From the IMG/VR virus record IMGVR_UViG_3300025120_000092, positions 1 to 49,326 of that record: a stretch of DNA of 49,326 bases, one strand, 5' to 3'. Positions 36,837 to 49,320 of this stretch are shown in pieces. Below the pieces are notes generated by a model. That model was given only the letters and a program-made list of their open reading frames with translations, was not told the DNA's origin and made no database searches. The stretch is from a virus. The stretch's first letter is position 1; each line of letters opens with the position of its first letter. A program made the translations under genes and the position numbers.

Positions 36837-37221
36837 TAATATTAGACTTAACTGACTGCCAATATTTCACTGTGGAACTTTTTTTGTAACCGTTTGGTCC
36901 GCCGTTGTGGATTCTTGCGCGATCTTCATCGGTTGGTTTTCTACCTAATCTTTTTTCAGTACAGTACCTATTCCAGTATGCCAACATTATTTTCTCTGAG
37001 TAGTCTTTATCTACACAGTCTAAATAAACACCACCAATGCTGGGATTGTGTTCGACAGCATCTTTCCAATAACACTGAAGAATTTGATATGGACCGATTT
37101 CACCAGCAGCACCTACTGCTGTGGAGTCACAGTTACTTTCCACAATACAAATAGATTGCATTAACTCATCGTGAGCTGAAGCTGTTCCGAGAACCAAGAT
37201 GGTGGAGATGAGTATTTCCAT
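36832..37221 (-). CDS. invertebrate-type (destabilase) lysozyme with signal peptide
   Basis: 129 residues. Starts at the ATG overlapping the upstream stop (TAATG), which gives MEILISTILVLGTASA, a short signal peptide; upstream in-frame M's lie inside the preceding gene. The body reads ICIVESNCDSTAVGAAGEIG and PYQILQCYWKDA, then YSEKIMLAYWNRYC and ARIHNGGPNGYKKSSTVKYW. ARIHNGGPNG is a hallmark of the i-type lysozyme/destabilase family, and the VES Glu fits the catalytic Glu. Likely a secreted peptidoglycan hydrolase for lysis or entry. Unusual family for a phage. Confidence 0.8.
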   Translation of the reverse strand: MEILISTILVLGTASAHDELMQSICIVESNCDSTAVGAAGEIGPYQILQCYWKDAVEHNPSIGGVYLDCVDKDYSEKIMLAYWNRYCTEKRLGRKPTDEDRARIHNGGPNGYKKSSTVKYWQSVKSNIT

Positions 37222-37838
37222 TAGTTGTAGTGTGATACTAGAGCGTGATCTGGAAACCATTCGGGTAGGGGATCGTGAGGTTTTCGGTAATCACAACGGC
37301 CGATACCTTTTTTCCACTTTGCGAATCTAGCCTTTTCCCCGATGTAATACTTTCTGTAGGCACTAACGGCATCCCCCTCCACCTTGTACTCATCAGGCAT
37401 TGCCTGAGCAAAGGGAGTAACCTTGTGGTAGGTGTCTTGATCAATGTTCTCGGGCCAATCGGCCTTACAGAATTCAATAATAGATTCTGACGCATGACGA
37501 CGATCGTATCTTCTTGTATATTCCCTACAGAGTTGGAGGCCGTGGGAAACCAACCACATGTAGTTACCCAATGTTTCGCGGGCCCAGATTGTACATGGGT
37601 GATTTACCATTGTAGCATGGTACAGAAACTTATGATCTGGCATGTCACGATCAAGCCAATGCGTCCACCTTTTGATTCGCCGACCAGTTTTTGAATAAGC
37701 GACATACTCTTCTCCGTCAAGCATTCGATGAATGGTCGAAAGCATCTGTGCAGTTTCGACCGGCATCTTTACAATGTGCTTGTCACACATGTGGTTTGCG
37801 GATGTCAATGGTGAATCGTGAAGTACAAAAATGTTCAT
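37221..37838 (-). CDS. conserved marine-phage protein of unknown function
   Basis: 205 residues. It opens MNIFVLHDSPLTSANHMCDK with HIVKMPVETAQMLSTIHRML. The central NHPCTIWARETLGNYMWLVS is followed by HGLQLCREYTRRYD. These 'DKH.VKM..E.AQ.LS' and 'NHPC..W.R.....Y.WL..HG' patterns define a conserved family in T4-like cyanophages. No known catalytic set is recognised. It overlaps the lysozyme start. Confidence 0.65.
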   Translation of the reverse strand: MNIFVLHDSPLTSANHMCDKHIVKMPVETAQMLSTIHRMLDGEEYVAYSKTGRRIKRWTHWLDRDMPDHKFLYHATMVNHPCTIWARETLGNYMWLVSHGLQLCREYTRRYDRRHASESIIEFCKADWPENIDQDTYHKVTPFAQAMPDEYKVEGDAVSAYRKYYIGEKARFAKWKKGIGRCDYRKPHDPLPEWFPDHALVSHYN

Positions 37839-37855
37839 ATACGTATTTTACACAA

Positions 37856-38839
37856 TTATTTTTCTGTGTCAAGTATAAACTTGTAGTCACTATCGTACAT
37901 CATCTTTGCTAGATCTTTGAACGATGTTTCTGGTTCCCATCCAAGAACTTCCTTCGCTTTACTAGAATCACCCAACAGATAAGGAACTTCATGTGGTCTG
38001 AAAAGTCTATCGTCTATCTCCACATACTTTTCTGGATCTAGTCCTGCAATATCAAAAACTTCATGCAAAAAATGTTTTACAGTGTAAGTATGTCCAGTTG
38101 AGATTACATATTCATCAGCTTTATCCTGCTGTAACATCAACCACATTGCCTTTGCATAATCACCAGCAAATCCCCAGTCTCGATATGAGCTTAGATTTCC
38201 GAGTGATAATTTATCTTGTAAGCCAAGTTTGATTCTTGCGGCAGCCAAAGTAATTTTACGAGTCACGAAAGTTTCACCTCTTCTTGGTGATTCATGATTG
38301 AACAAAATACCAGAAGAGGCGTGCATGTTATAAGCGACTCTATAGTTTCTAACTAAGTTATGTGCAAACAATTTAGCACAAGCATAAGGGGATGCTGGTG
38401 TCATTCTAGACTCTTCGGTATATCCAGTCTCTGGACAAGGAGCATCACCATACATCTCTGATGAAGACGCTTGATAAAATTTACAATCAGGAACCAAAGC
38501 TCGAATAGCTTCGAGTATATGGAGTGTTCCCATAGAAATACCGTTGACAGTATCTTCAGGAACATCAAACGAGACACGAACATGTGATTGTGCCGCTAGA
38601 TTGTAGATCTCATCTGGTTTGTACTTTGATATCAATCTCCAAGTAGAAGATGAATCATTCAGATCATGATACTCAAGAATGAAGTCTTCATTATCATACA
38701 GATGATCAATCCTATCTGTGGTTATTAAACTAGTTCTTCTTTTTAGTCCAATGACTTTGTAGCCTTTAGATAGCAAAAACTCGGACAGATAAGATCCATC
38801 CTGTCCACACACACCACTTATGATTGCTGTTTTTTTCAT
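37856..38839 (-). CDS. gmd: GDP-mannose 4,6-dehydratase
   Basis: 327 residues, slightly shorter than E. coli Gmd (373). Glycine motif GVCGQDG (9-15), NLAAQSHV (80-87), catalytic SSSEMYG (125-131) and Y152-x3-K156. Downstream GILFNHESPRRGETFVTRKI and RDWGFAGDYAKAMWLMLQ are characteristic. Converts GDP-mannose to GDP-4-keto-6-deoxymannose, precursor of fucose and rhamnose-type sugars. In a phage it could modify host surface glycan or supply sugar for glycosylation. A perfect TATAAATA late promoter and AAGGAA Shine-Dalgarno lie upstream. Confidence 0.93.
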   Translation of the reverse strand: MKKTAIISGVCGQDGSYLSEFLLSKGYKVIGLKRRTSLITTDRIDHLYDNEDFILEYHDLNDSSSTWRLISKYKPDEIYNLAAQSHVRVSFDVPEDTVNGISMGTLHILEAIRALVPDCKFYQASSSEMYGDAPCPETGYTEESRMTPASPYACAKLFAHNLVRNYRVAYNMHASSGILFNHESPRRGETFVTRKITLAAARIKLGLQDKLSLGNLSSYRDWGFAGDYAKAMWLMLQQDKADEYVISTGHTYTVKHFLHEVFDIAGLDPEKYVEIDDRLFRPHEVPYLLGDSSKAKEVLGWEPETSFKDLAKMMYDSDYKFILDTEK

Positions 38840-43301: not shown

Positions 43302-43583
43302 TCAGCCGTTGTCGAGCATGTAGCGGTTACCGAACTTGTCATACCCGTAGGTACGAGTGCCGGGGTGAGTGTCCTGCATGAAGTAGCGGGTGCTACCGTT
43401 GCTGGTCTTCTCAGTGACGCATTCCCAGTTACCGTACTGCTCCATCTCAGCACGAATGTTGCTGATCATGGCGCGGAAGTTACCGACACCGAAACGAGCC
43501 TTAGCTTCGTTCTGGGTGAGTCCCTTACCGGCGGTGAGGAAGTTGATGCACTTTCGCTTCTTGGTGAGTGTGTTGCTAGTCAT
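43302..43583 (-). CDS. small helix-turn-helix-like phage protein
   Basis: 93 residues. MTSNTLTKKRKCINFLTAGK, then GLTQNEAKARFGVGNFRAMI, which has an HTH pattern with SNIRAEMEQYGNWECV. This matches a small family in T4-like cyanophages. Likely DNA binding. Shine-Dalgarno AAGGA. A sigma70 promoter and a leader hairpin precede it, so it may be early. It ends before a strong terminator. Confidence 0.75.
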   Translation of the reverse strand: MTSNTLTKKRKCINFLTAGKGLTQNEAKARFGVGNFRAMISNIRAEMEQYGNWECVTEKTSNGSTRYFMQDTHPGTRTYGYDKFGNRYMLDNG

Positions 43584-44111: not shown

Positions 44112-44140
44112 ATTCTAACATAATTGACAGTCTCTGTCAA
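44112..44140 (-). promoter_or_regulatory. sigma70-type promoter with operator-like palindrome upstream of tRNA-Lys
   Basis: TTGACA (44140-44135) and TAGAAT (44117-44112), 17 bp apart. The -35 lies in a perfect 7-bp palindrome, TTGACAGAGACTGTCAA (44140-44124), an operator-like site. The ~130-nt leader to tRNA-Lys holds no ORF of note. Confidence 0.8.
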
Positions 44141-44342: not shown

Positions 44343-44415
44343 TGAGCCGGGTGGGGCTTGAACCCACGAGTACACCGTTATAAGCGGTGCTGCTAATGCC
44401 ATCCGCGTCCGGCCC
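44343..44415 (-). tRNA. tRNA-Ile (UAU)
   Basis: 73 nt on the minus strand. Acceptor GGGCCGG/CCGGCTC, anticodon arm CACCG-CTTATAA-CGGTG with UAU, T-arm GTGGG-TTCAAGC-CCCAC. No CCA. The D-stem is weak (GCGG/TAGC, one mismatch). UAU would read AUA directly; most bacteria use CAU with lysidine. Unusual isoacceptor. Confidence 0.85.
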
Positions 44416-44424
44416 GTGTCACCA

Positions 44425-44691
44425 TTATATCACATCTGCGGGGAATGTCAACTTTAATTTCTTGTTTGTGACGTGTCCGTTGTCATTTTTGTTGAGGTAG
44501 TTGGACTTTTGCCTATCCTCATCGTGTCCGAGTCTATAGTTCACTTGCTCGATACCACCCATGACCGTATTGAGCTTTTCCTGTGCCTCTACATCAGAAA
44601 AGTGCCAATGCATAAGAGCATTTACCCGTTCAATTGCTTCTTCTTCATCAGTCCCAAGTGGAATATCAATGTGTAGCCTGTATTGGCTCAT
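44425..44691 (-). CDS. conserved phage protein of unknown function
   Basis: 88 residues. MSQYRLHIDIPLGTDEEEAI and ALMHWHFSDVEAQEKLN followed by NYRLGHDEDRQKSNYL. A Ser/Asp-rich C-terminus. Shape 'YRLHI..P......AI....' fits a small conserved T4-like marine phage family. Shine-Dalgarno AAGGT. Coupled to the upstream gene by ATGA overlap. No known function. Confidence 0.6.
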   Translation of the reverse strand: MSQYRLHIDIPLGTDEEEAIERVNALMHWHFSDVEAQEKLNTVMGGIEQVNYRLGHDEDRQKSNYLNKNDNGHVTNKKLKLTFPADVI

Positions 44692-47988: not shown

Positions 47989-48192
47989 TCAGGAAGATTT
48001 GCTGCGGTCTACTTGTACTCTGCGGGCGAGGACTGCTCTTCGTGATGCAATCTTCCTTGCAGTATCCGAGCGTGCCGACTGTACATCTTTTTGTGCTTGC
48101 TTAAGGGTAGAACCCAGTCGGCGATCGCTGAACTTTTCCATGTTGGAATCGTCGTTCTCGTTGTTCTCTAAAAACTTGCTAAAACTCTTCAT
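47989..48192 (-). CDS. 67-aa conserved phage protein
   Basis: 67 residues from ATG 48192, Shine-Dalgarno GGAGA. MKSFSKFLENNENDDSNMEK, then basic RKIASRRAVLARRVQVDRSK. The N-terminal MKSF..FLE motif is shared by several small T4-like phage proteins. Function unknown. First gene of the minus-strand operon next to the divergent intergenic region. Confidence 0.55.
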   Translation of the reverse strand: MKSFSKFLENNENDDSNMEKFSDRRLGSTLKQAQKDVQSARSDTARKIASRRAVLARRVQVDRSKSS

Positions 48193-48235
48193 TGTAATTC
48201 TCCAAGGATAGAGTATGTATGTCATTGTGGGCCCC

Positions 48236-48288
48236 GCTAGGAGTCCCATGCTAGGAGTCCCATAGGGGTCCCATGCTAGGAGTCCCGT
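48236..48288. repeat. tandem array of a 14-bp unit
   Basis: Unit GCTAGGAGTCCCAT at 48236-48249, 48250-48263 and 48275-48288 (last two bases differ), with an 11-bp truncated unit AGGGGTCCCAT between the second and third. Located in the divergent intergenic region. Confidence 0.9.
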
Positions 48289-48371
48289 GGGGGGGTGTGT
48301 TTTGCCGGGGGTATGGAGCTGATTTTTTACCGCCGCATTTCGCTAAGGGTTTTGGGGTGTGGGACCCCTAT
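48262..48371. repeat. 12-bp inverted repeat pair, 86-bp spacer
   Basis: ATAGGGGTCCCA at 48262-48273 is complementary to TGGGACCCCTAT at 48360-48371. Could form a long-range stem or a pair of binding sites. Confidence 0.75.
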
Positions 48372-48465
48372 TGCTCCCTGCACTGTTTGGACAGGACGTT
48401 GATAGGGGTGGATAGTAGGCAGGAAAAAAAACTTATAAAAAACCCATAAAAAGGCACTCAATGGG

Positions 48466-48493
48466 TTGACGGGTGCTGGAGTTCTGGTATAAT
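48466..48493 (+). promoter_or_regulatory. sigma70-type promoter for a leaderless gene
   Basis: TTGACG (48466-48471) and TATAAT (48488-48493), spaced 16 bp. Six bases separate -10 from an ATG at 48500, so transcription is expected to start at or beside the start codon. Confidence 0.85.
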
Positions 48494-48499
48494 ACATGC

Positions 48500-48757
48500 A
48501 TGAACATGACAGACAACAACATCGTTTTCACCCTCTCCGATCCCTCCTGCAACGGATTCACGGATCTCCTCCAGCGTGTAGTGTATCTCTCCGAAGACGA
48601 ATGTTTCGAAGCTGCTGATGAACACAGTCAAGCGTTCCCCGAAGATCCCTACCTCGTCGTCCGTGCTACTCGTGTCCGTGACAACGACTGGGTCGAAGAC
48701 TACGGTTGTGACGGTTCCAACTACCTTGCTGATGTCCAGTACTCGGAGACTCACTGA
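48500..48757 (+). CDS. small acidic early protein, leaderless start
   Basis: 85 residues from ATG 48500 (MNMTDNNIVFTLSDPSCNGF); a second ATG at 48506 is possible. Acidic, mixed alpha/beta with CFEAADEHSQAFPEDPYLVV and DNDWVEDYGCDGSNY. No Shine-Dalgarno. Codons end largely in C, unlike the late genes. First of a plus-strand cluster; the next gene overlaps its stop by 1 nt (TGATG). Function unknown; host-takeover type by position. Confidence 0.7.
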   Translation: MNMTDNNIVFTLSDPSCNGFTDLLQRVVYLSEDECFEAADEHSQAFPEDPYLVVRATRVRDNDWVEDYGCDGSNYLADVQYSETH

Positions 48758-48972
48758 TGAATCTATTCGTTGCACACGCTTACGGTTTCCCCTCATCCGA
48801 ATATGGTTGTCACTTCGTGGTCGCTGCTCCTGAAAAAGATACAGCGTTCCGAATGATCGACGACCATCTCCGTGAGTTCAATACCGATGGACTGGATATC
48901 GAGGTTCCCCGTCATATCGGTGTCGCGGCTGCGGGTGTGAAGTCCGGTATCGTTTCCCAATTCACCACTTGA
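48757..48972 (+). CDS. 71-aa small protein
   Basis: 71 residues, MNLFVAHAYGFPSSEYGCHF, then FRMIDDHLREFNTDGLDIEV and ending GIVSQFTT. Compact alpha/beta pattern. Its ATG overlaps the stop of the preceding gene, so it relies on translational coupling. C-ending codons. Function unknown. Confidence 0.65.
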   Translation: MNLFVAHAYGFPSSEYGCHFVVAAPEKDTAFRMIDDHLREFNTDGLDIEVPRHIGVAAAGVKSGIVSQFTT

Positions 48973-48997
48973 CCACTTCCTCTCTATGGAGTACAAT
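48969..48997 (+). promoter_or_regulatory. sigma70-type promoter for a second leaderless gene
   Basis: TTGACC (48969-48974) and TACAAT (48992-48997), spaced 17 bp. Six bases separate -10 from the ATG at 49004, the same arrangement as the promoter at 48466-48493. The -35 overlaps the upstream gene's stop codon. Confidence 0.8.
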
Positions 48998-49003
48998 ACA
49001 CAC

Positions 49004-49237
49004 ATGAACGAAACCAACTACAACGACGACATTCGTGCAGACGACCTTTTCATTGCTGGTGACGAGATCACCGAATGGGAGAATGCCTGCGACATGATGG
49101 ACCCCGAAGTCGCCTTCGGTGAACTCTGGTCCGACGACATTGAAAGGCTTCCCGAGGACGATGACATCTCATTCGAGTGCGGCCCTCATGTTATGGGCTA
49201 TGACCTCGAACCCCTCGATGAGGAAGACTGCCCATGA
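49004..49237 (+). CDS. small very acidic protein, leaderless start
   Basis: 77 residues from ATG 49004 (MNETNYNDDIRADDLFIAGD). Highly acidic throughout (EITEWENACDMMDPEVAFGE, LPEDDDISFE). The earlier in-frame ATG at 48986 lies upstream of the -10 and was rejected. No Shine-Dalgarno. Acidic small early phage proteins often mimic DNA or inhibit host enzymes, but no specific function can be read. Confidence 0.65.
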   Translation: MNETNYNDDIRADDLFIAGDEITEWENACDMMDPEVAFGELWSDDIERLPEDDDISFECGPHVMGYDLEPLDEEDCP

Positions 49238-49320
49238 TGACACTCTCCATGATTTTCGCTTGGGTCGCCTTTGTTTGTTTCGTCCTTGCGTTCCTAGCAG
49301 GCGCAAGTCCAAACAAATAG
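49234..49320 (+). CDS. 28-aa single-pass membrane peptide
   Basis: MMTLSMIFAWVAFVCFVLAF followed by LAGASPNK. One hydrophobic segment. ATG overlaps the previous stop (ATGA). Small membrane peptide of unknown role. Ends 6 bases before the window edge. Confidence 0.5.
   Translation: MMTLSMIFAWVAFVCFVLAFLAGASPNK

Follow-up and report, generated by a model that had tools for sequence, protein, structure and literature searches.

When a start codon lies at the very base where its promoter should begin transcription, is the gene read from a messenger with no leader at all? The question is raised by the right end of a 49,326-bp viral sequence, hereafter the window, which is the whole of virus record IMGVR_UViG_3300025120_000092; the record itself is probably a fragment. 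Here two small open reading frames (ORFs) begin 6 nt after the −10 boxes of near-consensus σ70 promoters. We put at about 0.8 the probability that early genes and a repair gene of this phage are made as leaderless mRNAs, from σ70 promoters whose transcripts begin with the ATG codon itself.

The window carries baseplate wedge and hub proteins, T4_baseplate and a gp32-like SSB, the last with 55–62% identity to Kyanoviridae phages (Synechococcus, Pelagibacter) and marine relatives, the Pelagibacter phage being about as close as the cyanobacterial ones. From these T4-type structural and replication genes and the gp32-like identity, the phage is classed as T4-like and related to Kyanoviridae; no host marker is present in the window. 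Its last kilobase has a GC of 0.52 and GC3 values of 0.50–0.65, against a GC3 of 0.21–0.34 in most structural genes, and the final 1.1 kb stands apart from the remaining sequence in both GC and codon usage.

Promoters and reading frames at the right end

The features of the two units, and of a third, minus-strand unit that is discussed below, are these:

48466–48471, plus strand: −35 box TTGACG of unit 1
48488–48493, plus strand: −10 box TATAAT of unit 1, after a 16-bp spacer, with TG upstream
48500–48757, plus strand: unit 1 ORF, 85 aa (beginning MNMTDNN), acidic, GC3 0.60
48757–48972, plus strand: 71-aa ORF, the second gene of unit 1, which overlaps the stop codon of the first
48969–48974, plus strand: −35 box TTGACC of unit 2, overlapping the TGA stop (48970–48972) of the 71-aa ORF
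48992–48997, plus strand: −10 box TACAAT of unit 2, after a 17-bp spacer
49004–49237, plus strand: unit 2 ORF, 77 aa, very acidic, GC3 0.65
49234–49320, plus strand: hydrophobic ORF of 28 aa, which overlaps the stop codon of the unit 2 ORF (ATGA); the window ends here
37867–37872, minus strand: −35 box TTGACA of unit 3
37845–37850, minus strand: −10 box TAAAAT of unit 3, after a 16-bp spacer, with TGTG before the box
37221–37838, minus strand: unit 3 gene, 205 aa, Pyr_excise (PF03013) / phrog_624

The sequence confirmed both right-end sites as originally described, with their boxes, spacers of 16 and 17 bp and gaps of 6 nt. The discriminator is ACATGC in unit 1 (from TATAAT to the ATG at 48500) and ACACAC in unit 2 (from TACAAT to the ATG at 49004). 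Both ORFs are predicted to be leaderless, with the A at 48500 as the predicted +1 of unit 1. Gene size, position and σ70 promoters suggest that the two units are early. The 71-aa ORF is probably translationally coupled to the unit 1 ORF, and the 28-aa ORF is a possible second gene of unit 2.

Viral contigs and phage records yielded no homolog for the protein of either unit, so both start codons are assigned from reading frame and geometry alone. The 71-aa ORF gave a weak match to phrog_21741 and a further weak match in S9220M01. It also has an EYGCHFVV-like stretch in common with two otherwise unrelated phage contigs (L003, L004), which were retrieved through it and rejected as homologs because nothing beyond this short stretch is shared. 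A search for relatives syntenic at the right end, made through the 371-aa and 249-aa proteins, found no close one.

An intergenic stretch at 48230–48420, past the structural block and ahead of the early units, is GC-rich (0.586) and contains repeated CTAGGAGTCCCAT-like units. A single GCGATCGC, a HIP1-type palindrome and the only one among the stretches counted, is found at 48121, beside the early region. On the minus strand, a 93-aa ORF at 43302–43583 (GC3 0.74) resembles the plus-strand early ORFs in codon usage but has an SD-like motif. A perfect σ70 promoter (TTGACA-16-TATAAT) occupies 44415–44451 on the same strand and is expected to start about 2 nt short of the 5′ end of tRNA-Ile(TAT), and two further near-consensus minus-strand promoters lie around tRNA-Lys, at 44140 and 43690.

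A 6-nt gap in the window and in related contigs

The pattern TTGAC-N17/18-TANAAT-N6-ATG occurs three times in the window against a mean of 0.013 per shuffle, and none of 300 dinucleotide-preserving shuffles reaches three. At every other gap from 0 to 30 nt, the same −35/−10 pattern occurs at most once in the window. The motif common to all three units, TANAATAC-N4-ATGAAC, is absent from the 300 shuffles. A loose search of the window for a −10 box, 6 nt and ATG, with no −35 box required, found 7 sites where 3.5 were expected; this is not significant, and the search was rejected as a stand-alone test. It is the −35 box that makes the pattern exceptional, and with the box included the proposal that the geometry exceeds chance is borne out.

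The third unit spans 37872–37836 on the minus strand. The original prediction spoke of two units in an early cluster; both are real, but this one lies outside the cluster. The gap-6 units fall outside the structural block, whose genes mostly have SD-like motifs. Across the window such motifs precede 34 of 40 genes (the ATG at 49004 is counted among them owing to an upstream GGAG), so the expected contrast with SD use elsewhere holds.

Unit 3, in which the discriminator ACGTAT separates TAAAAT from the ATG at 37838, is predicted to make its gene leaderless as well. The gene belongs to the Pyr_excise, or pyrimidine-dimer glycosylase, family, and its start codon is certain because homologs align from residue 1. 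For unit 3 at least, this answers the objection that translation might really begin at a later codon.

We inspected the start codons of the best 80 relatives of this gene in viral contigs and took tblastn-anchored counts on 80 aligned homologs, L153 included, accepting promoters with at least 5/6 matches in the −10 box and at least 4/6 in the −35 box. Gap-6 promoters were found at 9 of the 80 (L041, L044, L045, L046, L047, L048, L051, L053 and L153), some of which are near-duplicates; the remaining close-promoter matches also total nine, scattered over gaps of 19–35 nt. These gap-6 homologs are just 43–48% identical to the window protein, and their spacer sequences differ. The closest kin of the unit 3 gene (L005–L013, 81–92% identity) have no gap-6 promoter there, and judged from these sequences the unit 3 promoter is not conserved among near kin. 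Its presence in distant homologs and absence from near ones means that lineages acquire or lose the leaderless promoter, always at an identical spacing.

Sought in relatives more widely, the geometry recurs as arrays. On G015, the 117-kb contig of L043 and a distant T4-like relative, strict thresholds gave 18–19 gap-6 units against 0–3 at other gaps, with 13 gap-6 units within 13 kb. Further arrays comprise 17 units (G018), 12 (G023), 11 (G022), 9 (G019) and 7 (G020), and a reversed-pattern control gave no match in these five contigs. G018 also encodes a T4-type major capsid protein with up to 57% identity to cyanophage ones. Under the same strict thresholds, Syn9, S9220M01 and T4 gave 0–1 at gap 6, with a peak about 22–29 nt after the −10 box. 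These counts rule out gap 6 as a general T4-like or cyanophage property, a reading likewise contradicted by the pattern counts in P-SSM2, S-CRM01, S-SRM01 and Mosig.

The arrays contrast with their contigs as the end of the window does with the rest, having a GC of about 0.45–0.59 against mostly 0.32–0.42 in the sampled remainder (G015, G018, G022). Given the same contrast, the window very likely breaks off where an array starts, its final kilobase most probably being the first, cut-off part of a GC-rich early array. Short gaps separate some units of an array, while others are spaced widely enough for more genes to lie between them. The −35 box may share bases with the stop codon of the gene before it (tTGAc), as it does at 48969 and also in G015, G018 and G023.

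The arrays were located at L093 6000–19100 (G015), L337 (G018), L339 (G022) and L342 (G023), in contigs that are otherwise AT-rich. In G015 and G022 the array includes a gene for an AAA_5 ATPase (418 and 449 aa), predicted to be leaderless, and after it one for a protein of 725–739 aa, which in G015 resembles a cyanophage ‘peptidase’.

In the viral collection as a whole, the pattern TTGACN{17,18}TANAATAC-N3-CATGAAC matched at least 120 stretches, whereas the same pattern lengthened by two bases (gap 8) matched 3, an excess of at least 40-fold for gap 6. Bacterial and archaeal genomes yielded 64 stretches, mostly in Clostridia and Paenibacillus. A host origin of the motif was considered and rejected, as all of these are single matches and point to no host.

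Where transcription would start

Transcription usually starts at the seventh base after the −10 box. With +1 so placed, in each of the three window units and in the arrays of relatives it coincides with the opening base of the start codon; nothing intervenes, so no usable SD lies between the two. The base before the ATG is C at 91 of 102 gap-6 sites and T at 9, and a pyrimidine at −1 followed by A at +1 fits initiation at the A of ATG.

It is unlikely that these promoters, though real, start 1–5 nt further upstream, giving very short SD-less leaders and an SD-independent, near-leaderless initiation. The start position at natural promoters does vary by a few nucleotides, a leader of 1–3 nt would be compatible with the sequence, and gap-7 sites do exist in relatives: in the loci that the collection-wide pattern retrieved, the promoters of other ORFs number 98 at gap 6, against 20 at gap 7 and 6 at gap 5, and there is also a broad leadered peak at gaps 24–30. 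The gap is nevertheless exactly 6 nt in three of three window units and in nearly all array units, and the pyrimidine at −1 with A at +1, found at 100 of the 102 sites, fits a start at the ATG itself. Unit 1 in addition contains a second ATG at 48496, out of frame with the one at 48500. A start 4–6 nt upstream, at 48494–48496, would place this AUG first, so the predicted +1 must be precise.

That the small ORFs are instead read from a longer polycistronic RNA, with the −10/ATG spacing incidental and unit 2 using a GGAG at 48987–48990 or an in-frame ATG at 48986, we consider highly improbable. Both elements do lie upstream of the ATG at 49004, and the ORFs are densely packed with overlapping stop and start codons. 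By the usual rules, however, the 13 nt between GGAG and ATG is too long for SD spacing, while unit 1 has neither an SD nor a clear same-strand gene upstream, and three gap-6 units with a common motif, or arrays of 11–17, are beyond chance. The predicted lack of an SD at both sites stands for unit 1 and needs amending for unit 2. As the GGAG and the ATG at 48986 precede the predicted transcript start, they are relevant only to read-through RNA, which may add some expression.

Promoter-like sequences beside spurious ORFs, or a chimeric contig end, would suit the deviant GC and codon usage of the window end, the ORF products without homologs and the non-significant loose search, but such a chance or artefactual origin has a negligible likelihood, given that no shuffle attains the observed count once the −35 box is included, that GC-rich arrays recur in AT-rich contigs (G015, G018, G022), that gap 6 so far exceeds gap 8 in viral contigs, and that unit 3 precedes an ordinary gene with homologs.

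The first codons are also distinctive. Codons 2–9 are A/C-rich, with a G fraction of 0.11 in the window units and 0.09–0.16 in the array groups against 0.24–0.29 later in the genes, and the first 40 nt have a mean folding energy of −1.9 kcal/mol compared with −8.1 kcal/mol internally. SD-led genes of the window are G-poor at their starts too (0.147 against 0.216), so part of this effect is general. Leaderless translation is known to be enhanced by CA repeats after the AUG (PMC9031893).

The leaderless reading originally proposed thus draws support from the significant 6-nt gap, its recurrence, its absence in leadered T4-like controls and the pyrimidine at −1. As several window genes and the arrays of relatives share the geometry, it looks like a real phage expression strategy and not a coincidence. 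Near-consensus σ70 promoters with their natural start on the first base of the ATG would lead host RNA polymerase to produce leaderless mRNAs. The host σ70 enzyme would read these promoters on entry of the phage DNA, no phage transcription factor being needed, and transcription would begin at the A of AUG. 70S ribosomes with initiator tRNA would then initiate directly at the 5′-terminal AUG, aided by the A/C-rich, G-poor and unstructured first codons. Each early unit would form a mini-operon, in which a leaderless first gene is followed by a stop-overlapping and probably coupled second gene (overlaps at 48757 and 49234).

Leaderless genes and phage promoters compared

Leaderless phage genes are already known. 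The lambda cI mRNA begins at the A of its AUG, has no SD and is bound and translated by E. coli 70S ribosomes (PMC11514452, PMC9031893). The likeness lies in the mRNA start at the AUG and the lack of an SD, which here are predicted from sequence. cI, however, is a single lysogeny repressor gene, whereas in the present T4-like phage the geometry is common to several genes, among them a repair-family gene and small ORFs of early type. Translation of leadered mRNAs is blocked by kasugamycin, that of leaderless ones is not (PMC11514452). Thermus phage phiYS40 makes many leaderless mRNAs, from middle and late genes (PMC3594737), in a host whose phylum is rich in leaderless genes; the units described here have host-type σ70 promoters and lie outside the structural genes. 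A programme of the phiYS40 kind was not found in the window, whose structural genes are mostly SD-led.

Actinobacteria and Deinococcus-Thermus have many leaderless genes, and the TA-led genes of these phyla resemble the present units in having a −10-like box whose first T lies about 12 bp ahead of the start codon (PMC3160421, PMC12340547). They differ in relying on a −10 motif (TANNNT) with weak −35 dependence, whereas here near-consensus −35 boxes with 16–17-bp spacers occur in Kyanoviridae-related phages. The early promoters of T4 and of Kyanoviridae such as Syn9 and S9220M01 are likewise strong, σ70-type and in T4-like phages, but their genes mostly start 22–30 nt after the −10 box, which leaves room for an SD, instead of 6 nt. 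Our search of the open-access literature turned up no description of T4-like phages with early leaderless arrays.

The chances are about even that a wide, undescribed group of T4-like phages makes its early takeover genes as such leaderless arrays, each built from a consensus σ70 promoter, 6 nt, ATG, A/C-rich first codons and GC-rich codon usage, while the late genes are SD-led. If so, early protein synthesis would be free of SD/anti-SD and 30S-based control, late genes would keep their SD, and the phage could switch translation modes in the course of infection.

SD-dependent gene finders may miss or mis-start such genes, for which the motif offers a simple, searchable signature. Leaderless mRNAs are commonly regarded as rare relics or host-specific habits. 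Phages with a dozen or more early genes in a fixed promoter–AUG geometry, alongside SD-led late genes, would be natural material for testing what leaderless initiation is used for, whether as a timing switch, to bypass a shut-off of translation or to pack promoters and genes more tightly.
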